This document shows positions 3-32,384 of a DNA stretch of 33,108 bases, piece after piece. Made by a program: the position numbers and the translations under genes. The notes under the pieces are model-generated. The model made no database searches and had not been told where the DNA came from. It was given only the letters and a program-made list of their open reading frames with translations. Position 1 is the stretch's first letter; every line of letters begins with the position of its first letter. The stretch spans positions 1 to 33,108 of IMG/VR virus record IMGVR_UViG_3300008448_000352; one strand, written 5' to 3'. The DNA comes from a virus.

Positions 3-3000
3 ATAGATACTCTTACTTATGCATTAAATAACTTTGGTGATCCTGCTAACTTATCTAAACCTACTGGTTTGATTAAGTATCACATGGAGACGTCGAAGTT
101 CTTGTCATTTGAGGACAAACTATTGACAACACAGGATGATAGTAAATCAGCTACCGAACCTACGAAAAACGAATTCGAAGCGAAATCGGGTAACGAACAA
201 TCGATGCAGGCATTGGCCTCTCCTGTTCTCCTATATACTATCTATAGTTTATACTCCTATGATAAAGACGGTGAAGTTAATACTAACCTACTAGGGTTCC
301 CTGAACTTGCTGACTTCAATAGGTCATGGAATCGTATAGTAAACGTTACTGACGGTTCCCGTAACATCAATGATGTCTATGCTAAGTTAAAGGCCGCAGA
401 GAATGACTACCCTGTTATCAAGCAATTCTTGAGCAAGGTAGGTTCTCCTGATACACTAGACGGTGCTAGCCAAGGTCTATGGAGTGAGATCAATAAAGTT
501 CTTACTATGTCTCGTGTTCCCCTTGCTATTTTTAGTACAGAGGTTACCCGATCAAGAGTTAAGACAGATCCTTCTGATCCTAACGATAGAGGTAAGTATA
601 CCGTATCCGTAGAGTTTAGACCTACAATTGCCGGAGGTGAATACCGTAAGGTAGGTATGCGTTGGGATAGCGACTTCGCTATGCGTCCTCCTGATGACTT
701 TGTAAGAGTTAACCCTATTAGTAATACTAATGAGTTAATGATAGACAAGGTTCTAGAGAAGTTCAAGTTCGTTAACGAGAATAACGTATTTGAATTTATG
801 GCAGCAATCGGTATGCCTCTAGAGGATAACAAGACAGTTCTTGCTGCGTTAAAGGATCGTGATACCGGTATCCTAAAAGATATTCGCGATATCCACTTTA
901 CTTTAGAAAGAATTAACGAGTATAATGTTAAGTTCAGTAAGGGTAATCCTATTGCTATCTATAGTCCAACCGATATTGTAAAAGACCACTTCCGTAAAAT
1001 GGATGACGGTAAAGTTAGACCTAGAACAAGCGATAAAACAATTAACGCATCACTAGCTGGTTCTTCTAACAAGTATCAAAGTATACAGAAGTTCCACTTA
1101 AAGTGGTCAGATGATTTCTCTGATACTACAGTGTCTAACGCTGAAGGAGAAAACCAATACGAAAAGTCTAAGCGTTCTACAGTAATTAATAACATCGAAG
1201 ATATTAATGCTGCTAACAATCTTATCGAACTTACTCAAGAAGGTATAACTGATGGTCAGGACGGTTCAATGAATCACCTGGATATTGGCCGTAATCCTTT
1301 CATGAAGACATCTATGTTTATGGATGCTATATTCGATGAGAAAGGAAATAAAAGATCTACTAGTAGTTTTGGTAAAAAGACTATTGCAGGATTCCAGTTA
1401 TTGAATATGGCCGGTACAAGTGTACAGGTTAAACAGATTAAAGGAATTATAGATAGATCAGGTGTTGCATCCTCTGCGGCGGATGATACTACTAAGACAA
1501 TGCAGGATTACTACATGATGATGCTTTACGGAGTATCAGAAGCCGTAAGACATGCCGATAAGAGTACTACGTATTTATACCGTCTAATGCAAGCAGATCC
1601 TAAACGCAATCACTTGATTGAGTTAATAGATTTTGCAAACGTACGTGAAGAAGGTATGCCGTCATTAGGACGTACAAAGTTTGTAGGACAGATGGTAAAA
1701 TACTTGTCATCTGAATACGAGCGTATCCAAAAACTTAAAGATGGAGATGAAGCGGGTACTACTATTGTAGGTAAATCTACTTATGCAGAAGAGGGCTCGA
1801 CATTCAAAATATTTGATAAAATCCTTAGTACGGAAACCAAAGCAGCATTACAAAAATATAGAAGTAGATCTTTAGGTAATCCTATTCGTACATCTGAACA
1901 ATTCTTAGAGCAACTTGATAAAGACACTGAACTTAAGAATACGGTAGAACAGGAGATTAGTGCATACTTGACACAAAAAGTTAAAGACTTTACTAGTAGA
2001 ACTGAGAACCTAAAACTATTTAGTAAGGCTTCTTTAGTAGAACCTGTTATTAGAAAAGTTGCAGGAAGTTCTACTGAGTACTATAGTAACATGTCTCAAG
2101 AACGTAAGAATCAAATTGCAGACTCTCTTGCAGAAGCATACATCGCAAACTCATGGTTACAAAACTACGAGACAGTGTTGATGTTCTACGGAGATCCTGC
2201 TTTATATAAAGATGCAGACGACTTCTTCAAACGTGATGCTGGTATCAGTGCGACTGGAGATACTCCACGTACAGATGTGTACATGCAGAACTATATCAAT
2301 AAAGGATTAAGTGAGATCAGTTATGCTGCTAAAAAAGGAATTGCTCCTAAGCAGTGGGGGCATACCATGAACTCTGCGGTATTACAAGACGTTAATACCA
2401 GATCTACTTATATTAATGAGTATAAAGACGAGGCAATTAAAAAAGAGAAAGCGCGTCTTAACAAAATAAATGCATCTAAAGAAGTAATTGACGAGGCGGT
2501 TAAAAAGATCGAAGATCGTTTTGAAGAGGCCTATGGTAAAATGACAGAGGGTGACGGACAAGGTTGGATAAACTTTGACGCATACCGTTCTTTATTGAAG
2601 TCAATGAACAAGTGGTCAAGTTACCAAGAAGCTCTTTATAGAAAAGTTGTAAGCGGCGAATCTGTAGATACTGCGGAAGTACTACAATTCTTCCCGGTTA
2701 AAAAGATGCAGTATTGGGGAGTACTTAAGACAGGAGGTTTACCTGTATACGGTTTCCACAAGTTCTCATTGATGCCTATGATCCCTACTTTAGTAGAGGG
2801 AACAGGATTAGGATATCTTCAGTTAAGTATGTTAAAGCAAGGAATAGATTATGCTTTATTGCAGTCAGGTTCTAAGATTAACACAATTACTAAAGACGGT
2901 ACTGTAGATAAATTCTATAATGACAATTCACAACATGCAGGTGAAAGAACTCTAGCAATAGCAGATCCTGGATATACCTTTACGAAGAACACTATCTTCA

Positions 3001-6000
3001 CTAAGTATTTTAAAGATCAGTTAGAGGTACACGATCACTTCTCAAATAAAGTTACATTCTCTACTCAAATGCGTAAGCTTATTGAAGAGGGTCTAATGGA
3101 AGACGGAGTTCCATCTGATTGGAAACCAGAAATTCTAGGCGCCGAAGAGAGAGTAGAAGCATGGGAAAAGGCAGACGATAAAGAAAAATTAAAGTCTGTT
3201 AACTATAGAAAGATCTTAGTCTACGAATCTAATATTAATAAACTTGTAGAACTTAAGAAAGAACAACTTAAAAAGGAGATTGGTACCGATAAAAAGGCGC
3301 TAGTTAAATTTATAAAAAAAGAACTTGAGCGTAGCGATAAGATGTCAGAGCATGAACTAGAGTTCATCGACTATGATGCTTATACTAACGACCTTAAGAA
3401 TGCATTAGAACTTTCCTTATCTGTTGACCAGATAGAAAAGTTATTGGTAGGTATTGTGCAAAAACGTATTATCTCACAAAAGGTACGAGGCGAAGCATTA
3501 GTACAAGTATCTAACGTAGGTTTTGATAAGTTCGGATTCAATTTCGAAAAACCTACTGAAGCAGAGATTGCTAGATACGGAAGAGATGACCTACCTTTCT
3601 ATAAAACAAACATGTCTAGATGGGAGGAGTATCTTGAAAGAACTTTCCCTGGTGTAGATAATAAAAAGACACGCAGTGAAATGCGTGATAAGATGCCTAA
3701 GGATTTTGCATCCGGCGCTATGAAAGTTAAGATTGCACTACAGGGTGATTTCAAAAAGTTATTGAACCTACCTGATGTACTTCAACTTTCAGTAGATAAA
3801 AACATAACCAGACTTCAAGCTTTAAATCAATTAATTAAAGACGAGAATTGGTTAGACGGACGTACAGATCCTATCTTCAAGGCAGCATTTGCACAGTTAA
3901 ATAGTACTAAGGGTGATACAAAACTATTTGTATTAAAGTCAGAACTTACCGATGATATCAAAGCATTATTAACTCCTGATACTAAAGGCGGTCTAAGAGA
4001 GAAAGGTAAAGATTACTATGGTATTAAAGTACTTGGTGATTACTATACCCACAAGACTCTTAAATCTGCAGATGGAGATAACCTAGATATCATCGTAGTA
4101 GATTCTGCAGAAGATGCACAACGTCAACTTGACGAGTACATCAAAGGTGGTGCTAAACAATTCGTGGATGTAAGTCCCGTAGACATAATGGGATCAAGCA
4201 AGAGAGATCTTATTACAATGGCAGCTGCACGTATTCCGGTACAAGGTCTTAACTCTATGGAATTCATGGAGGTGTACGAGTTCTTACCAGAAGCAGCAGG
4301 TAATATTGTAATTCTTCCTGCAGAGATTGTAGCTAAGTCAGGTGGTGACTTTGACATCGATAAGATGTTTACTATTATGCCTAACATCATTAGCAACTTT
4401 AGAACTGAATCTGACGAAACACTTAACGAACTTGAAAAAGAATTCGGTAGAAGAATTGATCGTAAAGAGATCAAGGCCATCGAAGATAAATTTGAGAACG
4501 AGGAAGAACTTACCGAAGAAGAAGAGAATATCATTAACTATATAAATGAATTCGGTAAGGGGGAATTTTACGTAGGACTAGCTAAAGGTAATAATGTAAA
4601 AGGTGTTGAGAATCAGTTACTTAAGAATACAGTAGGTATCCTTTCTATGCCTGATAACTTCAGCAGTCTTGTTACACCTAACGGTATTGACATCATTAAA
4701 CCTGCGGCCGATGACATGGCAGAAGCAGTACGTGGTGAAAAGAAAGGATCTAAAGCGTCTCCAACTGAAATCTTTGAATTAGAGAGAAACTTATATAAGC
4801 ATCAATCTAATAATATTGGTAAGACTATCTTAGGTATCATTGCGGTAAACAACACATTCAATGTAATATTCAATCGTGTTGGTATGCGTATGTCCGCTAA
4901 AAGAGTTATTACTGAGACAGAAGAAGGGCCTACACTTATGGATCAAGTTTTATACTTGCCACATAATACCATTAACGGTAACATCTCATTGTCTGGTGCA
5001 TATGCTGCTGACCAAGCTACACGTATATCTGACGTAATCAACCAAATGATTAACGGAGCGGTAGACGTTGCGAAAGATGCATGGATCTTTGATATCCAAG
5101 GTAACAAGGAAGTAATATCATCTTTGATCTTCTTACTACAAGCAGGTGTTCCTGTTGACCAGGCTATCTACTTTGTATCACAACCATTAGTTCGTGAGTA
5201 CATTAAACTAACTAGACAAAACAAAAGTAAGTTTAGTGTACCATTGGTAGATAAAGACTTTGGTACATATGCTCGTACTACTGCTAGAGATAAGATACTA
5301 ACTGATCCTAAATATGGATTTGGTTTTACAGAGTCGGATCTTTTAGGTAAGAAAAAGAGAGGTTCAGGCCTTGATAAAACAACTGTATTTGCAGCGTTAG
5401 ATCCTATTGCTAGAAACGGAAACTTTGATAAAGATGTTTTAAAGGCTAACGTATCTGACAAAACTACCTATAGTGATAACGACCGTGCGGCATTTGCGCA
5501 CTTTGTTCAAATCCAGGAGATGGCTAATCACATTACTGCGGTTACCCAAGGATTAAACTTCGATACTACTAAAACGTCAACGTTATTTGATGCAAGAGCA
5601 AAACTTGCAAACCTTGCAACATTGGGTAATGGTGTACCTGAGGATGTAATCCAAAAGATTATAAACGAATCACCTATTGGAGCATTTAAGATTCAGGACT
5701 TTATCAGCGAGCAGTATCACAAGTTGTTCCCATTGAGAGATAGCAATACAGTGTACTCATATATGGAGATGCTTTACGTTAGACAACCTGACGGTAGAAC
5801 ACCTATTAGTGATATCAAGAAAGCACTAGGACTTAAGAGTGGAAGAGAGGGTGATGAAAAGTTCCAAAGATTATTTAGAAATGATCTTATATCTTTCATA
5901 TTCCAATCAAGCTACTATAAGTTTGATCCTAACTCTAAAGTATACAAAGGCAAAGACACTAGCTTTGATATCCAAGAGTCTGGACCTTTAACTAGAGGCG

Positions 6001-9000
6001 CCGTAGTAAAAGACGGAAAGTTATATATTGATATTAAAACACTTAAGAATCAATACTCTACAGGCGTATATGCTATTGATATTCCTGTAAGCGGTGAATC
6101 ATCATGGAAAAACTTATCTGCACCTGTAGCTAAGGAAACATTCCAAAACGAAAATCAGTATGTGCAGTTTGTATACGAAAGAGAAACACTTAGAAGTTAT
6201 CCTGAAAACAGTTTCGAGAATATTTCTAAGACTAAGGAGTATGCAAAGTACATTAAAGAAAGTGCAAAGACCGGAGAGAGTGCTGCATTTAGAGCCTATG
6301 AAAGCGTACTTCGTGACAGAGCCCTAGATAATTTAAATTTCCACGGTCATCTATTTAATGGACCAAGAGCATATGCTCGTCAAGTACTAGACTTGAAAGT
6401 AACTAACCCTGGTTTATTTAAGAAGTATGCTATACTAGACAACTTAGAAGGTAAGACTTTGGAATCACAGTCAAACCTTAAGTTCTCAAACACAATGTTA
6501 AAAGGTGATGATTATAGTATCTATGCTCAGAACCTTAAGGATCTTGCTAATGAATCTATTAAAAAGTCCAACGATCCTGCTGAGAACTTAAGAATATCTA
6601 AACTATTCCAGAAGTTTCCATTGTATGCATTCTTACAATCAGGTGTAGATACTAGTAGTAGCTACAGTATGGTTAGAGCGGTATCAAGTACTGACATGCT
6701 TTCTTTAACTAAAGAACCGTACGAGAACTTCTTAGATATCTTAAGCACTGAAGAAGCTATAGTTCAACTTGATATATATCAAGAGTTGTTTATGAATCAG
6801 TATAGCACTGAAAATAAATACAATGCTAACAAGATTAAGAACTACGTTCCTACTGAAGATGTATTAAAGTATAGACAACTAAAAGAAGTATACAACCTTG
6901 ACCCTAGCGTAGGAGTAGAAGTATCTAACGTTGTAGATGATGAGTCTACGATGGATACAGACTTAGATGAAGTACCTAGTCGTAGCATCAGTATTAATGA
7001 TGTTAATATTGACTTAGGTAGAATCGGTATTGATTTCACTCCTAACGATCAACAGGTTGACGCTTTAGATAAAATTGGAAAATTCCTAGATAGCGACGAG
7101 ACTGAATTTACTTTAATGGGATATGCGGGTACCGGTAAAACTAGTATTACTAAAATCTTATTAGAGTACTTGAGAAAAGAAAATCTAAGTGTAACTATGA
7201 CTGCCCCTACCAATAAGGCAAAAACAGTTATGACTAGCGTTGCGGGAAAAAATGCTAAGACTATATTTAAAGCATTAGGTCTAAAACCACTGGCTGACGC
7301 TAATGAACTAGATTTAAATAATTTAGTATTTGACCCAAACCCAAATGTTAAATTTAAGAGTGACGTTCTTATTGTAGATGAAACATCTTTCGTTTCCGAC
7401 GGATTACACGAAGTAATTAAGTTTATTGCGGAAACAGCAGATGCTAAAATTATTTATATAGGTGATCCTGCACAGCTGAAACCACCTAAACAAAATACTA
7501 TATCGGATACCTTTAATATTAAAAACAAAGTTGAGTTAACTAAAGTAGAAAGACAAGCCGGTTCTAATCCATTAGGTCCTATACTAGATGGTATTAGATC
7601 TAACATTAACGGAGACAAAGATAGTTTTGAACACAAGTCTGCTATACAAGGAAATGAAGGTATTGTATTTACAGATAGCAGTGAGAAATTTATCGAGAAT
7701 GCTGTTAAAGCATTTACCTCTGATAACTTTAAGAAAAATAAAAACTTTGTTAGAATTGTAACATATCTGAACGAACGAATTCCTGAATTAAATAGAGATA
7801 TTCGTGCGGCGTTGGGATATACTCAAGAGTATGTACCCGGTGAATTACTGATGGCCTATACAAATTTAGGACGGAATAGAAGTGGTGACTATGATATCAC
7901 TAACTCTATGGACTATGTTGTAAGTAGCGTAAAATATGTTCAAGAAAAAGATGTAACTGGTTATTATACTGGCCAGGCTCTTATGGTCTCAGGATATGAC
8001 CTTGTAGTACAGGATCTAAATAATCCTAAAGAAGCGCCTGTTAAGATATTCATGTTAGCTAAGGACAATCCTCCTAGTGTATTTGCAGAGTTAGGTAAAG
8101 TTGCAGAAGCACTCTACAAAGAAGCAAATCTATCTAACAGGTATGATGAATATAATTCATTCCTTCGTAGCATAGGATCGCCACGTGATATAGTATCAGG
8201 TAGTAGAAAAATATTTAGTAAAGTGTTTGACTACGCATATACTCATAGTATACACAAATCACAAGGTAGTACTTATACAAACATCTTTGTTGACTTCCCT
8301 TCAATTGAAAACGGTACATATCTATCAAATCAGGATAAGAACCAACTTAAATATGTTGCGTTATCTAGAGCGACTAACATGGCGTATGTAATGTCTAAAG
8401 GAGCACAAGGTTTATCTCCAGATATAGATTGGAACATGCCGTTCAATTCTATGAAGCAAACACCTAGAGCTATTATAAGTGCTAAGACAACTGCTACTGA
8501 AAAACAAAAAGAGGATCTAAAAACTTTAGATAAAGTAAGTGTAGTTCGCGATCCCCTAACAGGAATCAATTACTTTAAGTATGTGACCTTGGACAAAGTT
8601 CCCGTAGCAGGAATATTTAATGAATCTTTCATGGAGTTACTTAAAGCAGATTACCCTAATGGATTATTCATACGTAATGAAGCAGTAGATGGCGGTAACA
8701 GTACCGGTAACAATACTGCATTCAGAGATATGGGTAACCAATCTATGGGTATCTTCAGTAAGAAAGGAACTAATCCTGCTAAAATTGGGGCTCCTAAGAT
8801 TACCAATGACGGATGGACTGACGCTACACTAGAGGAAAACAAAAAGTACATAGACGAAAGTATACAGAATATACTTAAGGAAATGGAAAAGAATCCAGGT
8901 ATGTATCCTGTGTTTGACTTCAATGGTTATGGTCAATACCTCATTGGGTATAACGAACTATCTCCATTCAGTGCAACTAGACCTTACGAACCGGTAGGAA

Positions 9001-9170
9001 AAGAAACATTCCTTTACTTATCGGAACAATTATTCCGTAACTTTGGATACATCAATCCCCACTACATGGAGTTCACGCAAGGTAAGAAAACCATACAGCA
9101 AATGTCTCCAGTAAGTGATGAAGAGTTAATTGAAAACTTTAAACAGTGTTATAAAAATAGTACAAAATGA
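3..9170 (+). CDS. Giant virion-type RNA polymerase fused to an SF1 helicase (5' partial)
   Basis: The reading frame is open to the left edge, so the true start lies outside the window. Numbering here counts the TTG codon at 69 as residue 1. The RNA polymerase core is recognised from the metal-binding loop GGDFDIDKM (D1427, D1429, D1431), preceded by RIPVQGLNS, the phage counterpart of the beta-prime NADFDGD region. An upstream segment with HKFSLMP and SGSKI (lysines near 898 and 936) fits the second double-psi beta-barrel. A full helicase follows: Walker A GYAGTGKT (2351-2358), IVDETSF (D2437, E2438), GDPAQLKPP (from 2465), HKSQGSTY (from 2729) and VALSRATN (from 2763, R2767). This resembles RecD2/Dda-type SF1B enzymes. 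Residues 1-870, 1450-2330 and 2800-3033 have no family I recognise. In crAss-like phages such polymerases are packaged and transcribe early genes in the host. The polymerase call is firm; a helicase within the same chain is directly visible; its role is inferred. Confidence 0.9.
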   Translation: MDTLTYALNNFGDPANLSKPTGLIKYHMETSKFLSFEDKLLTTQDDSKSATEPTKNEFEAKSGNEQSMQALASPVLLYTIYSLYSYDKDGEVNTNLLGFPELADFNRSWNRIVNVTDGSRNINDVYAKLKAAENDYPVIKQFLSKVGSPDTLDGASQGLWSEINKVLTMSRVPLAIFSTEVTRSRVKTDPSDPNDRGKYTVSVEFRPTIAGGEYRKVGMRWDSDFAMRPPDDFVRVNPISNTNELMIDKVLEKFKFVNENNVFEFMAAIGMPLEDNKTVLAALKDRDTGILKDIRDIHFTLERINEYNVKFSKGNPIAIYSPTDIVKDHFRKMDDGKVRPRTSDKTINASLAGSSNKYQSIQKFHLKWSDDFSDTTVSNAEGENQYEKSKRSTVINNIEDINAANNLIELTQEGITDGQDGSMNHLDIGRNPFMKTSMFMDAIFDEKGNKRSTSSFGKKTIAGFQLLNMAGTSVQVKQIKGIIDRSGVASSAADDTTKTMQDYYMMMLYGVSEAVRHADKSTTYLYRLMQADPKRNHLIELIDFANVREEGMPSLGRTKFVGQMVKYLSSEYERIQKLKDGDEAGTTIVGKSTYAEEGSTFKIFDKILSTETKAALQKYRSRSLGNPIRTSEQFLEQLDKDTELKNTVEQEISAYLTQKVKDFTSRTENLKLFSKASLVEPVIRKVAGSSTEYYSNMSQERKNQIADSLAEAYIANSWLQNYETVLMFYGDPALYKDADDFFKRDAGISATGDTPRTDVYMQNYINKGLSEISYAAKKGIAPKQWGHTMNSAVLQDVNTRSTYINEYKDEAIKKEKARLNKINASKEVIDEAVKKIEDRFEEAYGKMTEGDGQGWINFDAYRSLLKSMNKWSSYQEALYRKVVSGESVDTAEVLQFFPVKKMQYWGVLKTGGLPVYGFHKFSLMPMIPTLVEGTGLGYLQLSMLKQGIDYALLQSGSKINTITKDGTVDKFYNDNSQHAGERTLAIADPGYTFTKNTIFTKYFKDQLEVHDHFSNKVTFSTQMRKLIEEGLMEDGVPSDWKPEILGAEERVEAWEKADDKEKLKSVNYRKILVYESNINKLVELKKEQLKKEIGTDKKALVKFIKKELERSDKMSEHELEFIDYDAYTNDLKNALELSLSVDQIEKLLVGIVQKRIISQKVRGEALVQVSNVGFDKFGFNFEKPTEAEIARYGRDDLPFYKTNMSRWEEYLERTFPGVDNKKTRSEMRDKMPKDFASGAMKVKIALQGDFKKLLNLPDVLQLSVDKNITRLQALNQLIKDENWLDGRTDPIFKAAFAQLNSTKGDTKLFVLKSELTDDIKALLTPDTKGGLREKGKDYYGIKVLGDYYTHKTLKSADGDNLDIIVVDSAEDAQRQLDEYIKGGAKQFVDVSPVDIMGSSKRDLITMAAARIPVQGLNSMEFMEVYEFLPEAAGNIVILPAEIVAKSGGDFDIDKMFTIMPNIISNFRTESDETLNELEKEFGRRIDRKEIKAIEDKFENEEELTEEEENIINYINEFGKGEFYVGLAKGNNVKGVENQLLKNTVGILSMPDNFSSLVTPNGIDIIKPAADDMAEAVRGEKKGSKASPTEIFELERNLYKHQSNNIGKTILGIIAVNNTFNVIFNRVGMRMSAKRVITETEEGPTLMDQVLYLPHNTINGNISLSGAYAADQATRISDVINQMINGAVDVAKDAWIFDIQGNKEVISSLIFLLQAGVPVDQAIYFVSQPLVREYIKLTRQNKSKFSVPLVDKDFGTYARTTARDKILTDPKYGFGFTESDLLGKKKRGSGLDKTTVFAALDPIARNGNFDKDVLKANVSDKTTYSDNDRAAFAHFVQIQEMANHITAVTQGLNFDTTKTSTLFDARAKLANLATLGNGVPEDVIQKIINESPIGAFKIQDFISEQYHKLFPLRDSNTVYSYMEMLYVRQPDGRTPISDIKKALGLKSGREGDEKFQRLFRNDLISFIFQSSYYKFDPNSKVYKGKDTSFDIQESGPLTRGAVVKDGKLYIDIKTLKNQYSTGVYAIDIPVSGESSWKNLSAPVAKETFQNENQYVQFVYERETLRSYPENSFENISKTKEYAKYIKESAKTGESAAFRAYESVLRDRALDNLNFHGHLFNGPRAYARQVLDLKVTNPGLFKKYAILDNLEGKTLESQSNLKFSNTMLKGDDYSIYAQNLKDLANESIKKSNDPAENLRISKLFQKFPLYAFLQSGVDTSSSYSMVRAVSSTDMLSLTKEPYENFLDILSTEEAIVQLDIYQELFMNQYSTENKYNANKIKNYVPTEDVLKYRQLKEVYNLDPSVGVEVSNVVDDESTMDTDLDEVPSRSISINDVNIDLGRIGIDFTPNDQQVDALDKIGKFLDSDETEFTLMGYAGTGKTSITKILLEYLRKENLSVTMTAPTNKAKTVMTSVAGKNAKTIFKALGLKPLADANELDLNNLVFDPNPNVKFKSDVLIVDETSFVSDGLHEVIKFIAETADAKIIYIGDPAQLKPPKQNTISDTFNIKNKVELTKVERQAGSNPLGPILDGIRSNINGDKDSFEHKSAIQGNEGIVFTDSSEKFIENAVKAFTSDNFKKNKNFVRIVTYLNERIPELNRDIRAALGYTQEYVPGELLMAYTNLGRNRSGDYDITNSMDYVVSSVKYVQEKDVTGYYTGQALMVSGYDLVVQDLNNPKEAPVKIFMLAKDNPPSVFAELGKVAEALYKEANLSNRYDEYNSFLRSIGSPRDIVSGSRKIFSKVFDYAYTHSIHKSQGSTYTNIFVDFPSIENGTYLSNQDKNQLKYVALSRATNMAYVMSKGAQGLSPDIDWNMPFNSMKQTPRAIISAKTTATEKQKEDLKTLDKVSVVRDPLTGINYFKYVTLDKVPVAGIFNESFMELLKADYPNGLFIRNEAVDGGNSTGNNTAFRDMGNQSMGIFSKKGTNPAKIGAPKITNDGWTDATLEENKKYIDESIQNILKEMEKNPGMYPVFDFNGYGQYLIGYNELSPFSATRPYEPVGKETFLYLSEQLFRNFGYINPHYMEFTQGKKTIQQMSPVSDEELIENFKQCYKNSTK

Positions 9171-12100
9171 TAGCTTGTCCATTACCTAATTCTCTAGATC
9201 CTCTTATCCAACATGCCAAAGACATGGGTATGGGTTTTAACGCCAATACCGAAGTCATGCGTGCGTTCATGATGGTCAATCGTAATCTAGAGGCGGGTGC
9301 CGAACCTGTTATACCAACAATAGAAGAGTTTGATGAAATCATGGAAATGACTAATCAATGGACGGCAGCTAACAAGAATGTAGTAGAGACGAATGCTTAT
9401 AATGGATTTGCTCCTTCAGTAGGAGCATTCCCTGAGTATCAGTATTTAAAAAAACCTTTGACCCTAGATCTTGCTACACAGGAACAACTAAAGGCTAATT
9501 CTACTCTTAGCAATTTTGCAAACACACTAAGTGCAAACTTAAATGTGCCTTACCAATTTATCACCGCAGAAGAAGCTAAAGAACTTACTCGTGGTGTTAA
9601 TGTTTGGAAAGGACAACCTGGATTCTTTCTAGGAGATACTGTTTACTTAATACCGGAACTCGTTACAGAGAAGACGGTATTCCACGAATTCGCTCACCCT
9701 TTAGTAAGGGCTATACGCGTTAACAATCCTAAGTTATTCGCAAACCTTGTGTCTCAACTTATGGCTACAACAAAAGGTATAGAGTTAATGCAAGCGGCCG
9801 CATTAGGTTATCCTGAAGATTTAGATCCAAATGATCCTGTTATTATGGAGGAGGCATTGGTAATGTCATTAACCAAATCGGCTACAGATAGAGAAGACTC
9901 TGCGTTTAATAAATTTATTAAGAACTTATTATTTGCATTACGTCAGATCCTAAGAAAAGTATTCGGTGAAGTAGGGGAGAAAGTTAAAGTAGATAAGTTA
10001 GATGCTAACACAACGATTGATCAACTAGCAGACATGTTAGTTCTTAATCAGTTTGAAATAAATCCGTCGGAAATATCTCGAGAAGATTTAGCAGCATACT
10101 TGACAGACGTTAATACGTATGTAGAAACAATGAAGAGTTTCAGTAAGAATGATCTTCAGGCTACTACTAACCTGTTCTTTGAAATGATTAAGAAGCAAAT
10201 TAGACTTCTTAAGAAAAACGAAGACTATAAAGGACTTGAAGCAATTCTAAAAGATGCGTTTGATAGACCTGACTTAAAAGAAATTTATACTAATCTTGCG
10301 CCGTATCAAAACATAACTATCTTCTTAAAGAACGAAGCTAGCCGTATTGAGAATGATGCGGAGTTTGCACGTCAACATGTTGAAGCTCTTATCCAAAGTT
10401 TGCTTCGTACTAAGTATATGATTCAAAGATTAAATTCGTCATTACTTAAGATATCTAAAGAGCCCAACGATCCTAATAACATTGCGACAGTATTCTATTA
10501 CAATAACGTAATTAACTACTGGTCAAACTTTGTTGGTGAATTCCAAAAGACTTTAACTGAAAACGTTAAAAGAGGAGAATTAGATGAGGACAGTCCAATA
10601 TTTGAATTAGTATCAAGTATTATGGGACAAGTTCAGAATGCCGAGAAATATACAGGTACAATCTACAAAGAGGGTGTATCCCAAATTCTAGCAGAGACTT
10701 TGGAACCGATGCAACAGAATATTGATGATCGATTCAATAGAGAGTTGGAAAGACTTACAAAGAAAAATGCACCTCAGTATGTCATAGATGATTTAATGTA
10801 TGACTACTATGGTATGAAAGGAGACTTACTCAAAGACTACCTTGCTTTAAAAGAAAGGGTAGACAAAGGAGAAACTTTAACTGCTGCGGAAAATAAAAAC
10901 TGGGAAGTACTAAAAAGAGAAAGCTTTATAAAAGGAGCATACCTTAACAAGGAGAAGATGGATTATCTTCTTACCGGTAAACTAGGAGATGCTCATGCTC
11001 TTAACTCTTTCTTAGAGGGTTACATGTATAACCAAGACCCTGTTGTATTTGGATTTGCAACGTTTGTTAAAAATAAAATGACAGACGTGTTTACTAATAT
11101 GCAGGCAAAGGGAAATGCATTCCTAAAGGATGTAAAACCCTTGTTAGATAAAGCTGGTTACAATCAAGGTAATCCTGCAGAGTTCGGACGACGTGCCACA
11201 TTCCTTGATTCACGAGGAACAAGAAACGATTTAAATGTATTTGAAGAACAACAAGTTTATTCATTTCTTAATCCTTGGAAAAATTATCGCCTAGAAATGG
11301 ATAAGCTTAATTATGAAATTGAAGAAGCAACATCTCTAGCGTTACAAACAGGTAATGACGAAGGTGTTATTGCTCTTAAATTAAAGAAGCAAAAGTTTGA
11401 AAGAGAGTATTTTAAAATGCCTTTCAAACAAGGTTACTACGATAGATACGATATCTTTAAAAGAGGTGAGAATGATATAGTAGGTGAGAAGGCCGAAGGA
11501 CTTCGTAATGAATTATTAGCGCGTATTCAAATGTTAACCACAGGTATCAACAAACAATCGGATGCCGAAAGAAGTGATGCCAAGGATGATTTGGATACAT
11601 TGTGGAGAGAGTACCGTCAGTTGCACTCTAATTACACAGTGACCGGACAACTGAAAGATGAAGAAGGTATTGCAATTGCAACACGACTGAGAGAATTTAG
11701 AAATGCTTCTCGTGATTTATACACAGATACATTACTACCAGATCTATTCCGTCACTCATTAGCAGCATACGAACAGTATCTTATAGATCAAAATTATGCT
11801 AAGGGTAGTTTACCTTACCTTAAATTGAGAAAGGTATGGATAGATAAGAACACTCGCATTAAAATTAGCGACAAGTTCTACGAGGATCGCCAAAAGATTT
11901 TGGATGCGATCAAAGAGATTATGGATAAACTACCTAAAGACATTAAGGTAGATGCAGATATTTCAGAATTAAATGAGAAGTTACTTCAGTTGATGAATCC
12001 TTATCGTGATGAGGATATGCAACCAGAAGGAACGGCAATGGATGTTGGAAATATTAGAGAGATTAAGAAGGTTCAGAATTTAATTGAGATTGCTAAACAA

Positions 12101-14902
12101 AACCTACCTAAGGCTACTGGTTTAACAAGTATTGAACATGCCGAGGTATCAGCGTACTTTGCTAAGTTAAAAGAAGGTATCAAACCTACTGCGGCAGAAA
12201 GATCTAGAGTAAATGAATTACTTGCAAAGAAAACTAGAGATGGTTTATCTGCAGAAGATAAAAAGACTTTATACGAAAAGTATGATGAGTTAGCAGAAAT
12301 TCAAGAGTCTCTCCCTACAGATTATTATTTGGACGTAATGAACAACTACATGAGTCTTGTAGATTTGGAATACGTTAAAGATAATTTCGGATTTAAGGAT
12401 ATAGATGTTTCTACTGCGAAAGACGTATTGACTGAAGAGTTCTATAATGATGTTATATCAACTAATCCGGAATTCAAAGATTGGTTTGATGCTAACCACA
12501 CAATGCGTAAAGCATTTAACAAGGAAGGTGAAGAGTATATTAAAATAGAAAGAGTAAAGGCGTGGAGTGTCGTTAGACCGAAGGACCCTAGTTATTTAGA
12601 GTTACATGAGTTTGTTAACTCAGATGGAGTTTTAGAAACTATCCCATCAATACCTAATATGACTTACTATAAGAGAGAGGTTAAGGATGAATATATAAAT
12701 CCTGAGGTAACACTACTCGAAGCACTAGAGATGGGTGATATTACATTAGCAACAGTAGATGCAAAAGGTCAACCCTTACCAAGACTTGATGTAGCCGATA
12801 AGAGATTTATTAATGAAGACTACTTTAAAATAAAAGAGAGTGATCCTGCATTATTTGCTGCGGTAAATGCGTTAATGAAATGGCATCTTACTTTCCAAAA
12901 AGGAAATCCTGCGCCATCTCGTTTAGGACTTGACATACCTAGATTTATGAAAGAAGGTCACGAGTCAAGACTTACAACGTTTAGCGTAGAAGGTAGAGTA
13001 GAAAATCCTATTAGTAGTTGGGTAAAAAGAATGAGAGCATTCTTTACTGCACCTGCACCAGATGACTATGATCGTGGATTTAACTATAAGGACCAGGAGA
13101 CATTAGTTAAAGGAGATTTATTTGATGATCAGTTTGCAGGAATTCCTGTAACCGGTTTATCTAAGTTAGATTATAAAGATGTATCTCTTGATTTAACTCA
13201 GGGTATCTTGCGTTACGGAATGTCTACAGAAAAACAAAGAGCATTAATTGCAATGAATCCTGTAGCAAGAGCATTGCAACATGTTGTTCGCGAAAACACA
13301 CCGAGGGCAGTTGTTGACATAACAGAGTTAAACAAACGCATGCAAAGTAATAACTCTATTGGTAAGGCTTATCATACAATTAAAGCAATACGTAAGGGTG
13401 AGATATCCGTAAGAGAAAAAGCAATTAGTAACTTTATAGAAAGAGAATTTGAAGGTAAGTTAAACACAGGGGTAATCGGTGGTGATGCAGATAATAAGTG
13501 GGTTCACAAATTTGTAAATAACATTATGAAGGCATCGGCCTTTGGTTACTTTGCTTTGAACCTTCCGTCTTCTATTAAGAACTCTATGGACTTGCGTAGA
13601 CAATCTTTGCTTCAAGCAGCCGGAGGTAAATACTTTAACCACGTTAACTACTCTAAGGGAGTACTGTGGTCTAATAAAGTAACCTGGGAAATCAGTGCGG
13701 AGATATATAAGTTTGGACCTAAGTCTCATGATACTCAGTTAGTTGAACTATTCGATGCGATGCAAGGTCGTTTCGAAGATAAGTTTGCGGAGCATGGTTC
13801 TAGATCATTTAGTAAAGATGCATTAGGTAGTCTATCATGGATGACCAGCTTTAGAAAATGGATGGAGTTAAACTCAACCCTATCTATTTTCGGAGCAATG
13901 ATGTATCATGAAAAATCAGTAGACCGTGTAGTAGACGGTAAGAAAATGAGAATCTCTTACATGGATGCATGGGAAACTGTAGATGGTCAGATCAGACTTA
14001 AAGAAGGTGTAGACCCGGCATGGGGTATAGGAGGTGTTAAGTTTAAAGCATTTAAGAATAGAGTGCAGGGCGTAACAAATAACCTTGCCGGTTCTTTTGC
14101 AAAATTTGAATACTCAGAAGCAGATAGATATATAGCATTCCGTTTTGCTACAGCATTCAAACGTTGGTTCCTACGCATGTTCATGAACAGATGGCAACAC
14201 AGAGGTTCAATCTGGAAAGGTACTGCACGATCTAGATATGATGCAGCGGTAGGAGACACAGCAATGGGATTCCACTTAGAAGCATTACGCGCAGTATTTA
14301 AGATATTAAAGACTAAAGGAAACTACGTTAATTTTGTAAAGGATAGTGAGAAAGCGGCGATAATGAGTACAATTATGGACGTATTTTATGTTATGTTATT
14401 GCATATGGCAATCACAATGTTGTTTGACTTTGATGAAGACGACGAAGATAAGTTTGCTAAACTTCGTGAAAAATCAGGACCTCTTCCATTCCTTGGAGTA
14501 GCAGAAGGTCAGGATGAATTTAAACTAGGAGGATGGTTATCTAACCACGCTTTGTTATTGTCAATGCAATTAAAGAATGAATCATTACAGTGGTTACCAA
14601 TTCCAGGTTACGGTTTCCAAAACTACATGGATATGCTAAATATGAAATCGGTAGCAATGACTAATACATTCGATAACTTTAAAAAGATTAGTATTGGTCT
14701 TATTGATCATGCGGGTCACAACTTATTTGGTACCGACGATTCTAAAGCGTACTTCGATCAAAAAGAAGGACCTTATGAATGGATGCAAGAAGGTGGATCT
14801 AAAGTACTTACGTATACCGGTCGTGTATTCGGTATTACAGGTAAGGACGTAGATCCCGCACTTGGAGTAACTAGTCTAGTAAAGGGACAGAACTGGAGAT
14901 AA
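9167..14902 (+). CDS. Giant 1,911-aa protein with zincin metallopeptidase motif, probable virion cargo
   Basis: The start ATG overlaps the stop of the polymerase gene as ATGA, so the two are probably translationally coupled. Residues 173-178 read HEFAHP, an HExxH zinc site, and an acidic EEAL pair at 228-231 could supply the third ligand as in gluzincins; this is the only catalytic motif I can support. Much of residues 300-1300 is charged, Lys/Glu-rich and predicted helical from composition. Near 1734-1755 a hydrophobic stretch (DVFYVMLLHMAITMLF) is followed by an acidic DFDEDDEDK run and may be a membrane segment. Large proteins encoded beside the polymerase in crAss-like phages are ejected cargo, so a role in DNA delivery or in processing the neighbouring giant chain is plausible, but it is inference. 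The coding region itself is certain from its length. Confidence 0.85.
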   Translation: MIACPLPNSLDPLIQHAKDMGMGFNANTEVMRAFMMVNRNLEAGAEPVIPTIEEFDEIMEMTNQWTAANKNVVETNAYNGFAPSVGAFPEYQYLKKPLTLDLATQEQLKANSTLSNFANTLSANLNVPYQFITAEEAKELTRGVNVWKGQPGFFLGDTVYLIPELVTEKTVFHEFAHPLVRAIRVNNPKLFANLVSQLMATTKGIELMQAAALGYPEDLDPNDPVIMEEALVMSLTKSATDREDSAFNKFIKNLLFALRQILRKVFGEVGEKVKVDKLDANTTIDQLADMLVLNQFEINPSEISREDLAAYLTDVNTYVETMKSFSKNDLQATTNLFFEMIKKQIRLLKKNEDYKGLEAILKDAFDRPDLKEIYTNLAPYQNITIFLKNEASRIENDAEFARQHVEALIQSLLRTKYMIQRLNSSLLKISKEPNDPNNIATVFYYNNVINYWSNFVGEFQKTLTENVKRGELDEDSPIFELVSSIMGQVQNAEKYTGTIYKEGVSQILAETLEPMQQNIDDRFNRELERLTKKNAPQYVIDDLMYDYYGMKGDLLKDYLALKERVDKGETLTAAENKNWEVLKRESFIKGAYLNKEKMDYLLTGKLGDAHALNSFLEGYMYNQDPVVFGFATFVKNKMTDVFTNMQAKGNAFLKDVKPLLDKAGYNQGNPAEFGRRATFLDSRGTRNDLNVFEEQQVYSFLNPWKNYRLEMDKLNYEIEEATSLALQTGNDEGVIALKLKKQKFEREYFKMPFKQGYYDRYDIFKRGENDIVGEKAEGLRNELLARIQMLTTGINKQSDAERSDAKDDLDTLWREYRQLHSNYTVTGQLKDEEGIAIATRLREFRNASRDLYTDTLLPDLFRHSLAAYEQYLIDQNYAKGSLPYLKLRKVWIDKNTRIKISDKFYEDRQKILDAIKEIMDKLPKDIKVDADISELNEKLLQLMNPYRDEDMQPEGTAMDVGNIREIKKVQNLIEIAKQNLPKATGLTSIEHAEVSAYFAKLKEGIKPTAAERSRVNELLAKKTRDGLSAEDKKTLYEKYDELAEIQESLPTDYYLDVMNNYMSLVDLEYVKDNFGFKDIDVSTAKDVLTEEFYNDVISTNPEFKDWFDANHTMRKAFNKEGEEYIKIERVKAWSVVRPKDPSYLELHEFVNSDGVLETIPSIPNMTYYKREVKDEYINPEVTLLEALEMGDITLATVDAKGQPLPRLDVADKRFINEDYFKIKESDPALFAAVNALMKWHLTFQKGNPAPSRLGLDIPRFMKEGHESRLTTFSVEGRVENPISSWVKRMRAFFTAPAPDDYDRGFNYKDQETLVKGDLFDDQFAGIPVTGLSKLDYKDVSLDLTQGILRYGMSTEKQRALIAMNPVARALQHVVRENTPRAVVDITELNKRMQSNNSIGKAYHTIKAIRKGEISVREKAISNFIEREFEGKLNTGVIGGDADNKWVHKFVNNIMKASAFGYFALNLPSSIKNSMDLRRQSLLQAAGGKYFNHVNYSKGVLWSNKVTWEISAEIYKFGPKSHDTQLVELFDAMQGRFEDKFAEHGSRSFSKDALGSLSWMTSFRKWMELNSTLSIFGAMMYHEKSVDRVVDGKKMRISYMDAWETVDGQIRLKEGVDPAWGIGGVKFKAFKNRVQGVTNNLAGSFAKFEYSEADRYIAFRFATAFKRWFLRMFMNRWQHRGSIWKGTARSRYDAAVGDTAMGFHLEALRAVFKILKTKGNYVNFVKDSEKAAIMSTIMDVFYVMLLHMAITMLFDFDEDDEDKFAKLREKSGPLPFLGVAEGQDEFKLGGWLSNHALLLSMQLKNESLQWLPIPGYGFQNYMDMLNMKSVAMTNTFDNFKKISIGLIDHAGHNLFGTDDSKAYFDQKEGPYEWMQEGGSKVLTYTGRVFGITGKDVDPALGVTSLVKGQNWR

Positions 14903-22702: not shown

Positions 22703-23674
22703 TTAAAGAATTACATTACCTACCTCATACTCATAAGGTAAGTCATATTTTCTATTTGTGTAATGATAGTCTGCAATTTTCATTACCTCATCGAGTTTAT
22801 CCATCCAGGTATTAAGAGTTACAGTACTAACTTCAAATGCATAACACTGGGTGAGTTTATCAACCACTATGAAATGAAACTTAATCTTATAGTCACTTAA
22901 CTCAGGATGGTTTGCTCTTACTAATCTACAGTACACTGCAGCTTGCAACCAGTACTTATAATATTCTATGGTCTCCGGGAAATCTTGTAGCAGTTTTCCA
23001 CTAGTCTTAAGGTCATTAATGTAAATCACTTTGGCCCCATGATCAACATTGATGTTATCTACAAAACCTCTGAGACCAAATCCGTATTGTGTATCCATTA
23101 CAAGAGGCACCTCGCTTTGACTATCGGGGCTACCGATGTTTAGCAAACTTGTAATTTTAGTATTGGATCTCACAATGTCGGCATAGCCTTTTACTCTTGC
23201 CAGGGTGTCTTCATCTATAACAGTTTTGTCACCCTTTGTAGTTAAGAATTCATAGTAACTTTTACTTGCGTCAGTAACTACTTTCTCAACTCTTTGCGCA
23301 TCAGTCTTGAGACTCTGATACAGATTAATATCTTGCAGTATGTACAGGATATCATCTTCTAATTGTTCCAAAGATAAATCAAGATTGTTAGTAGCCAAAG
23401 CTTTTGCAAAGACTTTATCAACAACATTCTTAATGCTGTCACCCGGCAAATTCACCGGGGACACCACATACTTATCATAGAACTTATCTTCCTCTAGGAG
23501 AAGACAGTGAAGCAAGCTACCTTCAACCAGGTGCTGCTCCATCTTGTCCTCTCTTTGGTTTAAGATGTAATGCTTATAGAAAGCACTTGGGGCAAACAAT
23601 AACTTGTTAAACCCGGAATAACTAAAGTGAAACTTCTTGTTGTAGAAGTTCTCCTCCGCTTGGAAATCTATCAT
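22703..23674 (-). CDS. PDDEXK (RecB/Cas4-like) exonuclease
   Basis: The 323-aa protein has the order of motifs of RecB-type nucleases: a helical N-terminus with SYSGFNKLLFAPSAFYKHYI, GSLLHCLLLE (H56), SEVPLVM (E188), GLRGFVDNI (D206), YINDLKTSG (D221, K223) and YYKYWLQAAVY (Q244). D206 and D221-x-K223 form the PD-(D/E)xK metal site. It probably degrades DNA ends or makes single strands for recombination with the Sak4-like ATPase, or breaks down host DNA. The start at 23674 overlaps the upstream gene by 53 bases; the next Met (M45) would remove conserved N-terminal sequence, so the long overlap is likely real. Confidence 0.82.
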   Translation of the reverse strand: MIDFQAEENFYNKKFHFSYSGFNKLLFAPSAFYKHYILNQREDKMEQHLVEGSLLHCLLLEEDKFYDKYVVSPVNLPGDSIKNVVDKVFAKALATNNLDLSLEQLEDDILYILQDINLYQSLKTDAQRVEKVVTDASKSYYEFLTTKGDKTVIDEDTLARVKGYADIVRSNTKITSLLNIGSPDSQSEVPLVMDTQYGFGLRGFVDNINVDHGAKVIYINDLKTSGKLLQDFPETIEYYKYWLQAAVYCRLVRANHPELSDYKIKFHFIVVDKLTQCYAFEVSTVTLNTWMDKLDEVMKIADYHYTNRKYDLPYEYEVGNVIL

Positions 23675-27068: not shown

Positions 27069-28268
27069 TTAGTTTAATTTAATTTGTGGACCAGGTAGGT
27101 CTTTGTTTATACTTCCTCGGGTAGATATTACCCACAACATTTTGCCTCGTGGCTTTACAGAACAATCACATTCGCCATCAGTTAAATATATCAGACAGGT
27201 ATATTTATCTTGGCTCTCATTATACAATTCTAAAACTGGGTCAAAGTAAGTACCACCACGACCATGCACTTCTATCTTATCTCCCGCTTTATAGGGACCG
27301 ATATGACGGATGTGTGTATCACAGTGTACTACAGTAATATCTGCACCCGTCTTAGCGATATGGTCAATCTCGTGAAAGAACTCTTGTACCTCTGTATTAC
27401 TAACAGAAGCACTGGTGTCAATAGCAACTAAGATATGCTTGCGGTGTTTAATCTTAAGACCGGGGTTATCCTCGAATCTTTTATTAAACTTACGGCGTAA
27501 CTTCTTAGTAAATACTTTCTGACTACCCCCGGTAAAGCGTCTTAAGTATGCTTTCCAGTCAAACTTAGGTGGCTCACTATTATTTAGTCTATCCAATAGT
27601 GCTACAAGTTCTCCCGGTACATGACCACGAGACTTCTGTACTTGCTCTGCAATCTCCTTAAGTTGATGCTCCACTTGTTTCTGTACAAGTTTCTTTTCCG
27701 CTTCACTTAATTCATTGAATTCATCCCAAGTACTGTGATCAGGAACTTGATCGCCATCACCATAAGTTGGTTGACCTTGACCCATAGCCTTCATCATCTT
27801 CTCAAACTTACTAGTACCATCTCCATTATCTAACTGCTGTTGTAGTAAGTCATAATAAACTCTACAACCTGCTTTAGGTGGAAGGTTCATTGGAGCAAAC
27901 ATCTCATTATCGATTGTACATCCACCGTCGGGTAGATACATGCTATCAATATATTGATTGATCTCCAAGTCCATAGCTATGTTAGCTAGATTCTTATCTG
28001 CAAAGTCATTGTGTATAGTAAGATGGAAGAATGCAATATGCAATAACTCATGCTTCAGTAGACCAATGTGGTGCTCAGGACTTAGACTTTCCCAAAACTC
28101 TTCATTGATTGCCAACTGATAATTGATATTGTGTTTGCACACACCCGCCGTAGGAACACGTTTGCTCCATAACTTATTTAACCCAATGAGAAAGAGCCCA
28201 TAGAAGGGCTCCTTTAACATCAGTTCTTTACTAGCCTTCGCTAGACTTTCTTGTTTTGTAAACTTCAT
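27069..28268 (-). CDS. VWA-domain protein with N-terminal metallopeptidase-like (DUF2201-type) domain
   Basis: A 399-aa protein. The N-terminal domain has HELLHIAF (H73, E74, H77) followed by MDLEINQYID (99-108), the arrangement of DUF2201-type putative metallopeptidases. A Gly/Asp-rich linker (about 145-180) and a charged helix (185-215) follow. The C-terminal VWA domain carries a MIDAS: DTSAS (D284, S286, S288), GRGGTYFDP (T340) and LTDGECDC (D364). This domain pair commonly accompanies MoxR-type ATPases, and one is encoded directly downstream. The ATG overlaps the previous stop (ATGA). The protein may act as substrate adaptor for the ATPase; whether the HExxH site cleaves protein is unknown. 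Confidence 0.85.
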   Translation of the reverse strand: MKFTKQESLAKASKELMLKEPFYGLFLIGLNKLWSKRVPTAGVCKHNINYQLAINEEFWESLSPEHHIGLLKHELLHIAFFHLTIHNDFADKNLANIAMDLEINQYIDSMYLPDGGCTIDNEMFAPMNLPPKAGCRVYYDLLQQQLDNGDGTSKFEKMMKAMGQGQPTYGDGDQVPDHSTWDEFNELSEAEKKLVQKQVEHQLKEIAEQVQKSRGHVPGELVALLDRLNNSEPPKFDWKAYLRRFTGGSQKVFTKKLRRKFNKRFEDNPGLKIKHRKHILVAIDTSASVSNTEVQEFFHEIDHIAKTGADITVVHCDTHIRHIGPYKAGDKIEVHGRGGTYFDPVLELYNESQDKYTCLIYLTDGECDCSVKPRGKMLWVISTRGSINKDLPGPQIKLN

Positions 28269-31643: not shown

Positions 31644-32384
31644 TTAATCGATGTATACATTTTTCCAGTTAACTACTACCTTTTCATCTACAAGTTCAGA
31701 TAATTCTATCTCCTTGTTTCGTAGATGTTCGGGCCTTGCACCACATGATATCTCATCAGTGGTTTTAAAACTTAGTATGTTCTTATTACCGCGGCGAAAC
31801 AAATAACCAATTGCATCAGAGTTAGAACTAGCAATACGTTTAAGTTTACCAGTTAAATCTAAATCCAAAGAATTGAAATCGTTACCGTTCTTTTCTAATA
31901 AGGTGTCCTTAACGTGACCTACAAGTATAGTTCTCGGTGCCCAAGTCTTGATGTAATCAATAACTTTTGTGAATGCTTCCCTTAACCAGGGATATCCTGC
32001 ACCATTTGGTAGGTTAAGAATGCTACCGTATTTAGGCTTACCTTCAGTAGGCCAGTTCTTTCCCATCGGGGACTTTGTGTACAATAATTCAGCATAAGGA
32101 ATACACATCTCTTCTAATGCAGTGATGGTATCTACTGCTACATAAGTATACGGATTACCCGCTTCCTTAATTGCAGCACCGATATGCTTAATCTCTTCCA
32201 CACTACTAGCCTTAATCTTCATAGCGTCTACATAGTCGCTACCATTCTCAAGGTCTAGTATCAAACAGTTATCTAGTTGCGAAAGCACAGTAGTCTTACC
32301 GGCCTTTGGCTTACTAAATATAATCAGGTTCTTTGGACTCTTGTTAGTCGCCGGAACCTTGCTTGTAGGCAATTGAATCTCCAT
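31644..32384 (-). CDS. Sak4/RecA-like ATPase
   Basis: The 246-aa protein has Walker A SKPKAGKTT (24-32), an LILDLENGSD segment (41-50), Walker B YVAVDTITAL (D85) and later RTILVGHVKD, the RecA-fold pattern of AAA_24/Sak4 proteins. These bind single-stranded DNA and support strand annealing in phage recombination, usually with an SSB. The SSB-like gene lies 11 bases downstream. Length is usual for the family. No second domain or HExxH-like site is seen. The family call is fairly sure, activity inferred from relatives. Confidence 0.8.
   Translation of the reverse strand: MEIQLPTSKVPATNKSPKNLIIFSKPKAGKTTVLSQLDNCLILDLENGSDYVDAMKIKASSVEEIKHIGAAIKEAGNPYTYVAVDTITALEEMCIPYAELLYTKSPMGKNWPTEGKPKYGSILNLPNGAGYPWLREAFTKVIDYIKTWAPRTILVGHVKDTLLEKNGNDFNSLDLDLTGKLKRIASSNSDAIGYLFRRGNKNILSFKTTDEISCGARPEHLRNKEIELSELVDEKVVVNWKNVYID

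Follow-up and report, generated by a model that had tools for sequence, protein, structure and literature searches.

A Dda-type SF1B helicase fused to a crAss-type RNA polymerase occupies a region of variable content in related phages

In the human gut, crAss-like phages rank with the most abundant viruses, and they are also frequent in waters; the working of their giant virion RNA polymerase is still being elucidated. A 33,108-base stretch of phage DNA, the whole of IMG/VR virus record IMGVR_UViG_3300008448_000352 (hereafter the window), encodes a crAss-type polymerase with a helicase in the same chain, which raises the question of whether the helicase is a working part of the transcription machinery or an enzyme that the polymerase carries.

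A polymerase and a helicase in one open frame

The frame extends from position 3 to 9170 on the plus strand and comprises 3,055 codons without a stop, in agreement with the initial annotation, which had described an RNA polymerase and an SF1 helicase in one uninterrupted frame of more than 3,050 codons. Its 5′ end is open at the contig edge; judging from the 5′-complete relatives L014, L023, and L024, we estimate that the N-terminal ~950–1,750 residues are missing from the window. A single-sequence phmmer search matches the polymerase part to the virion RNA polymerase of phi14:2 (PDB 6vr4) with an E-value of 6.6e-27, and a profile of 24 relatives searched against the PDB returns 6vr4 as its sole match (E 2.1e-44). 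By phmmer and profile, the matches cover residues 788–970 (2364–2912, plus strand) and the catalytic region at residues 1407–1748 (4221–5246, plus strand); the profile matches are colinear over and on both sides of the catalytic region, with the two double-psi beta-barrels not separated. The DFDID metal-binding motif, which is invariant or near-invariant in the alignment of relatives, occupies residues 1449–1453 (4347–4361, plus strand); the initial annotation had recognized this loop and misplaced it by twenty residues, near residue 1429. The window protein thus carries, in a homologous context, the DxDxD catalytic loop that is a feature of crAss-type virion RNA polymerases. A predicted model of the catalytic end of the relative L019 resembles 6vr4 weakly overall (E 1.2e-7, TMq 0.33). 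Cellulophaga phage phi14:2 gp66 is a homologous single-chain enzyme of the same crAss type with the same DFDID loop; unlike its 2,194-residue chain, which has no helicase match, the window protein has an extra inserted module and a C-terminal domain that follows it. In another relative, L002 (cr108_1), the polymerase frame breaks exactly within the catalytic DxDxD at 14106–14397, one half ending at the start of the motif and the other opening with its remainder, with ~290 bases between them. This is the pattern that would be expected of an intron inserted at the active site.

The inserted module spans residues 2305–2841, approximately (6915–8525, plus strand), as delimited by BLASTP from its absence in the relatives L017 and L019 and by a low-confidence linker in the L019 model. 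Within it, an SF1B Dda-like helicase domain occupies residues 2331–2799 (6993–8399, plus strand), as identified by PHROG (PHROG 325, Dda-like, 1.6e-74), Pfam (AAA_30, 7.5e-22), and fold searches. The initial annotation had listed all main SF1 motifs at residues 2351–2767, and motifs I, Ia, II, III, IV, V, and VI are indeed intact, at residues 2373–2790 (7119–8372). On the plus strand, these include motif I (Walker A; GYAGTGKTS, 7119–7145), motif II (Walker B; VLIVDETS, 7365–7388), motif III (IYIGDPAQLKPP, 7452–7487), motif V (HSIHKSQGSTY, 8244–8276), and motif VI (YVALSRA, 8352–8372). The SF1 motifs are intact in every fused relative too. In an AlphaFold2 model of residues 2290–3055 (mean pLDDT 75.5), the best fold match of the helicase is T4 Dda (PDB 3upu; Foldseek E 8.3e-28; VIA Z 31.6 over 413 residues at 3.5 Å), followed by other Dda-type helicases and then RecD2 (VIA Z 27.5). 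Together with the match to 6vr4, the Dda matches bear out the reading that a single chain combines an RNA polymerase of the crAss (virion) type with a complete SF1B helicase of the Dda/RecD2 type. The window helicase shares the fold and all SF1 motifs of T4 Dda and, by analogy, is probably likewise a 5′–3′ ssDNA translocase. T4 Dda is synthesized after infection as an early protein of its own, whereas the window helicase sits inside a virion-type polymerase.

Beyond the insert, the chain resumes with a C-terminal alpha/beta domain (residues ~2842–3055; 8526–9167, plus strand) that is apparent from BLASTP and predicted models and is kept in the helicase-free sisters. Whole-model fold searches of the window tail were dominated by the helicase. 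This conserved domain may be a distant relative of DUF7831, since weak matches lie near it in L027, L044, and L060. A DUF7831 (PHROG 2072) module is present in 15 tails, for example those of L084, L087, L127, and L050.

Two further ideas about the insert were set aside. An intein or mobile intron origin finds no support in a Pfam scan of the frame, which detected neither a Hint-type intein domain nor a homing endonuclease; the identity of the insert as a helicase, kept under purifying selection in relatives, also counts against such an origin. Base composition does not mark the helicase as foreign, the G+C content being 0.346 in the insert and 0.371 in the polymerase part, and other lineages show no uniform trend.

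Two observations could point to an assembly chimera or to two genes joined by chance in a long frame: the window is a metagenomic fragment cut at its 5′ end, and the related locus L029 has a frame break inside its helicase. Five independently assembled contigs (L013, L016, L022, L023, and L024) are, however, colinear with the window along the frame, with the same order of parts at ~41–54% identity (BLASTP), so the frame is not an assembly join. The same architecture recurs in many contigs, drawn from different samples, as well as in the complete deposited genomes cr50_1 and cr118_1, which together with the colinear relatives rules out an assembly chimera. Close relatives have the fusion or, in the L019 record, no such helicase, and never two separate genes. 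Helicase dN/dS is 0.12–0.24 in five of six pairs, well below 1 and thus indicative of constraint, and 0.61 in one pair with few changes. An artefact is therefore vanishingly improbable: the fusion is real, and chance is excluded by far.

Distribution of the helicase among related polymerases

The initial annotation had suggested that such a fusion has no described precedent. It is, however, already present in two deposited gut crassvirus genomes of the Suoliviridae and in 18 further distinct polymerases, that of the window included. Both cr50_1 KNV26_gp059 (4,774 aa), labelled only ‘DNA helicase’, and cr118_1 KNV30_gp14 (4,946 aa), labelled ‘exonuclease V’, contain the DFDID and Walker A motifs in one frame. 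As in the window, polymerase and SF1 helicase share a frame with the helicase C-terminal, and the alignable polymerase segments are 21–25% identical to those of the window. In the literature, we found no description of a helicase fusion or of a variable region in crAss-like phages, which may nonetheless have been noticed earlier. The running text of Yutin et al. 2021 (PMC7886860) counts an SF1 helicase among the conserved genes and reports PDDEXK domains in transcription proteins, and does not mention a helicase fusion.

Two scans of IMG/VR with the polymerase region yielded 123 crAss-like phage loci, which comprise 108 distinct polymerase cores. The helicase is fused in 20 of the 108 and absent from 88. 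The tail from DFDID to the protein end measures 887–2,821 residues and is no longer than 1,050 in 25 of the 108; window-type proteins have tails of 1,606–1,648 residues, in which the helicase starts 880 to 902 residues after DFDID. Stand-alone crassvirus SF1 helicases (Carjivirus KP06_gp14, cr127_1 gp75; PHROG 325) belong to the same family at 27–31% identity. In contrast to the fused window helicase, they are encoded by separate genes of ~480–500 aa in the replication block, and in Carjivirus, cr3_1, cr127_1, and Rudgehvirus the stand-alone homologs adjoin genes for uracil-DNA glycosylase and DNA polymerase. A search of 50 records found a fused copy in ten, a stand-alone copy in three, and both in none, which does not establish mutual exclusion, as only 0.6 records with both would be expected and the difference is not significant. 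In the other 37 records, no Dda-type match rises above short P-loop matches, so the helicase function is dispensable.

Aligned by BLASTP with L017, to which it is 49% identical, the window protein falls into three blocks (residues 1–1295, 1389–2304, and 2842–3049). Window residues 1389–2304 correspond to L017 residues 2263–3127 and window residues 2842–3049 to L017 residues 3133–3336, so that the two blocks are adjacent in L017. The ~535 residues that include the helicase are absent from both L017 and L019, with the junction between L017 residues 3127 and 3133, while the rest of the protein is alignable to the window at 45–49% identity. L017 and L019 lie inside the helicase-bearing clade in a tree of 14 cores (IQ-TREE, support 96/95), and a topology that unites the eight helicase-bearing rows without these two is rejected (AU p 0.006); because of this nesting and this rejection, loss is the likelier direction, and the two have probably lost the helicase. 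Elsewhere, the 123.7-kb L019 record has a short P-loop match at most and no Dda-type helicase. An AlphaFold2 model of the L019 tail (mean pLDDT 78.4) places the junction near model residue 875, immediately behind a stretch with pLDDT below 50 (847–871) and between the helical part and the C-terminal alpha/beta domain. The insertion place of the helicase is thus predicted to be a flexible linker ~200 residues from the C-terminus.

Since the window is a fragment with no TerL or portal gene, the Crassvirales marker genes were read from the sister genome L019. Its TerL matched 128 phage records, mainly uncultured crAss, Bacteroides, Flavobacterium, and Cellulophaga phages, and its portal matches phi-crAss001 gp20 at 2.2e-20; single-query searches of this genome with the p-crAssphage TerL and MCP matched nothing. 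In both L019 and the window, the polymerase closes a plus-strand structural block; next come a ~1,900-aa gene and replication genes on the opposite strand, in that order. In L019, the gene upstream of the polymerase has no PDB match. The downstream gene of the window (9167–14902, plus strand; 1,911 aa), which directly follows the polymerase in most survey loci checked, has no Pfam or PHROG match; from its position, as in other crassviruses, its product is probably a second RNA-polymerase-associated virion protein. Relatives of this second protein often have an extra N-terminal ~550–850 residues (L034, L036, L054, L060, L063, L065, and others), which may be a variable module of its own. The minus strand of the window encodes a PD-(D/E)XK nuclease (22706–23674) and an AAA_24 (Sak4-like) protein (31647–32384), as is usual for a crAss-like replication block. 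The same block contains, at 27072–28268 on the minus strand, a DUF2201 putative metallopeptidase with a VWA-like domain, whose neighbors have no Pfam match; pairs of this metallopeptidase/VWA type often work with a MoxR-type ATPase. A search for a host signal in bacterial genomes gave one match, a 3.5-kb contig in a Bifidobacterium breve MAG, which is more likely stray phage DNA.

Contents of the variable region and their exchange

We scanned 58 longer helicase-free tails with Pfam and found 2OG-Fe(II) oxygenase (AlkB-like) domains in ten, cpYpsA SLOG in five, NADAR in four, ART-PolyVal in three (L050, L080, and L084), AAA_33 kinase in two, and DUF7831 in 15; PHROGs add DprA-like proteins and polynucleotide kinase. 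Scores above the Pfam curated cut-off were obtained for AlkB in L084, L086, L107, L118, L093, and L097, for SLOG in L077, L097, L108, L109, and L124, for NADAR in L067 and L097, and for ART in L080, with some others below it (e.g., AlkB in L027 and L067, ART in L050). All ten AlkB-like modules have retained the HxD motif for iron binding. Some modules are stacked: L097 has AlkB, SLOG, and NADAR, L080 has kinase and ART, and L083 has a DprA-like module and the helicase. Because the inserts are spread from ~760 to ~1,400 residues after DFDID rather than placed at one exact residue, and some stand in series, the ‘slot’ is a region. Six tails of 1,413–1,820 residues after DFDID (L038, L045, L048, L061, L131, and L072) have no clear Pfam or PHROG match and probably hold payloads of unrecognized type. 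NADAR is known to reverse guanine ADP-ribosylation (PMC11125620), and Iyer and colleagues predicted that domains of the NADAR, SLOG, and ART kinds act early in virus–host conflict (PMC5512222, PMC9503650).

Close pairs differ in these contents. Identity between L124 and L125 is 97.8% over a stretch of 3,246 residues and 97.4% over the final 193, and L124 alone has ~170 extra residues with a SLOG domain, at which the DNA flanks are 98.9% and 98.8% identical to L125. L101, which is without the helicase, is 82% identical over 3,049 residues to L105, which has it. L103 lacks a 445-residue AlkB-bearing piece of L108 (pair 83% identical), and L121 and L127 show a similar insert difference. On the polymerase tree (FastTree, 108 cores), the helicase trait changes seven times, with six of the changes forced by well supported branches. 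In the helicase tree (IQ-TREE, 29 rows), 18 of the 20 fused copies group together (94/91), with L104 and L105 apart. The polymerases of cr50_1 and cr118_1 are sisters (support 100), whereas their helicases belong to different branches in different halves of the fused group, and forcing these helicases together is rejected (AU p 5e-5). The helicase and polymerase trees conflict. The contrast in dS between core and helicase (0.10 and 0.63 for L046/L047, 0.12 and 0.50 for L078/L083) is as expected if helicase alleles had been replaced. A single origin of all fused helicases is not rejected (AU p 0.08), so the fusion in L104/L105 is only probably independent. These sequence comparisons indicate that exchange is recent and crosses lineages, with payloads gained, lost, and swapped between polymerase lineages.

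Short direct repeats at the insert ends were considered as a trace of exchange. Among six proteins tested, they exceed shuffled sequence only in L105, and we therefore claim no exchange mechanism. The L105 repeat is an imperfect direct repeat of 27 bases (25/27) at 740 to 775 and 900 to 940 residues after DFDID; it is well above shuffled sequence and flanks a stretch of the variable region ahead of the helicase.

Possible roles of the fused helicase

An architecture of exchangeable modules is very probable. We incline, with some reserve, to an overall reading in which a virion polymerase bears a variable payload near its C-terminus and the helicase is a delivered accessory. The payload lies in the flexible linker between the last helical polymerase domain and the ~200-residue C-terminal domain; here it is an intact Dda-family SF1B helicase, and in relatives the linker is empty or holds an AlkB-like dioxygenase, a SLOG/DprA-like module, NADAR, an ADP-ribosyltransferase, or a P-loop kinase. 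Polymerase proteins homologous to that of the window were found in phi-crAss001 virions by mass spectrometry (PMC10172136). This homology and the place of the gene suggest that the window protein is likewise packaged and injected; if so, its payload would enter the cell with the genome, ahead of any phage gene expression; such delivery of the payload with the virion is likely. The helicase, rather than being indispensable to the polymerase, would then serve as an early accessory factor on incoming DNA, a role that we consider plausible on balance, and it might clear bound proteins or defence complexes, open the template or R-loops, or help the first round of replication. The polymerase probably does not depend on the helicase, since it is missing from most relatives and was most likely lost in one lineage. 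Against the payload reading, some linker contents have no recognized domain, and the helicase is kept in several lineages under purifying selection, which could reflect a more specific partnership with the polymerase.

The initial annotation had proposed a built-in motor, in which the helicase would open promoters, pull DNA in, or clear the template and so couple entry to early transcription. Virion polymerases may prefer a single-stranded or denatured template, which the helicase would supply, and SF1 helicases, HelD for example, act together with cellular RNA polymerases. The physical fusion, the conserved C-terminal domain after the helicase, the Dda-type fold, and the intact motifs under purifying selection all speak for this idea; the absence of the helicase from 88 of 108 related polymerases, its probable loss from L017 and L019 in a protein otherwise alignable at 45–49%, the unrelated enzymes in the same region of other lineages, and the predicted flexibility of the linker make an integral transcription motor unlikely. 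A replication role is hinted at by the stand-alone helicases in the replication blocks of Intestiviridae and Crevaviridae. The fused enzyme, perhaps cleaved off, would do the replication or recombination job of its stand-alone homologs, with fusion serving only dosage or timing. The uracil-DNA glycosylase and DNA polymerase neighbors of those homologs favor this reading, as does, without significance, the lack of any record with both forms; yet the fused gene lies in the virion/transcription block rather than the replication block, 37 of 50 records have no Dda-type match, and the fused clade stays fused in many lineages, so we judge this explanation improbable, a little more so than the motor.

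The delivered-payload reading finds its nearest known concept in polyvalent proteins, large delivered or predicted-delivered proteins of phages and conjugative elements with varying effector domains, a group that includes the virion RNA polymerase of N4 with its fused metallopeptidase, ART, lysozyme, or PBECR domains (Iyer et al. 2017, PMC5512222, a paper that makes no mention of crAss phages). The tails of some relatives of the window protein likewise carry ART-PolyVal, and varying accessory enzyme domains are seen on a common polymerase backbone, whose delivery would complete the likeness. Unlike the N4 enzyme, which is of the T7 single-subunit type, the window backbone is an unrelated crAss-type polymerase, and the contents of crAss-type polymerases vary far more over short distances. 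A Pfam scan of the window protein detects helicase-related domains only; because the hallmark domains (ART-PolyVal, metallopeptidase) are absent from it, we describe it as working like a polyvalent protein and do not file it as one.

The helicase–polymerase fusion was thus already present, unremarked, in deposited genomes, and the exchangeable variable region is an addition beyond the initial annotation. Gene-by-gene annotation misses the payload enzymes because the proteins that contain them are labelled ‘DNA helicase’, ‘exonuclease V’, or ‘hypothetical’. Natural presence/absence pairs (the window clade and L017/L019, L124/L125, L101/L105) offer comparisons for the contribution of a tethered enzyme. 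The balance tips slightly toward a payload bay fed by recombination, in which counter-defence, repair, and DNA-handling enzymes (helicase, AlkB, NADAR, SLOG, ART, and kinase) would arrive ready-made at the incoming genome, tethered to the first-injected polymerase. If the payload reading is true, it indicates where crAss-like phages keep early counter-defence enzymes, and their polymerase may double as a vehicle that brings helper enzymes into the host.
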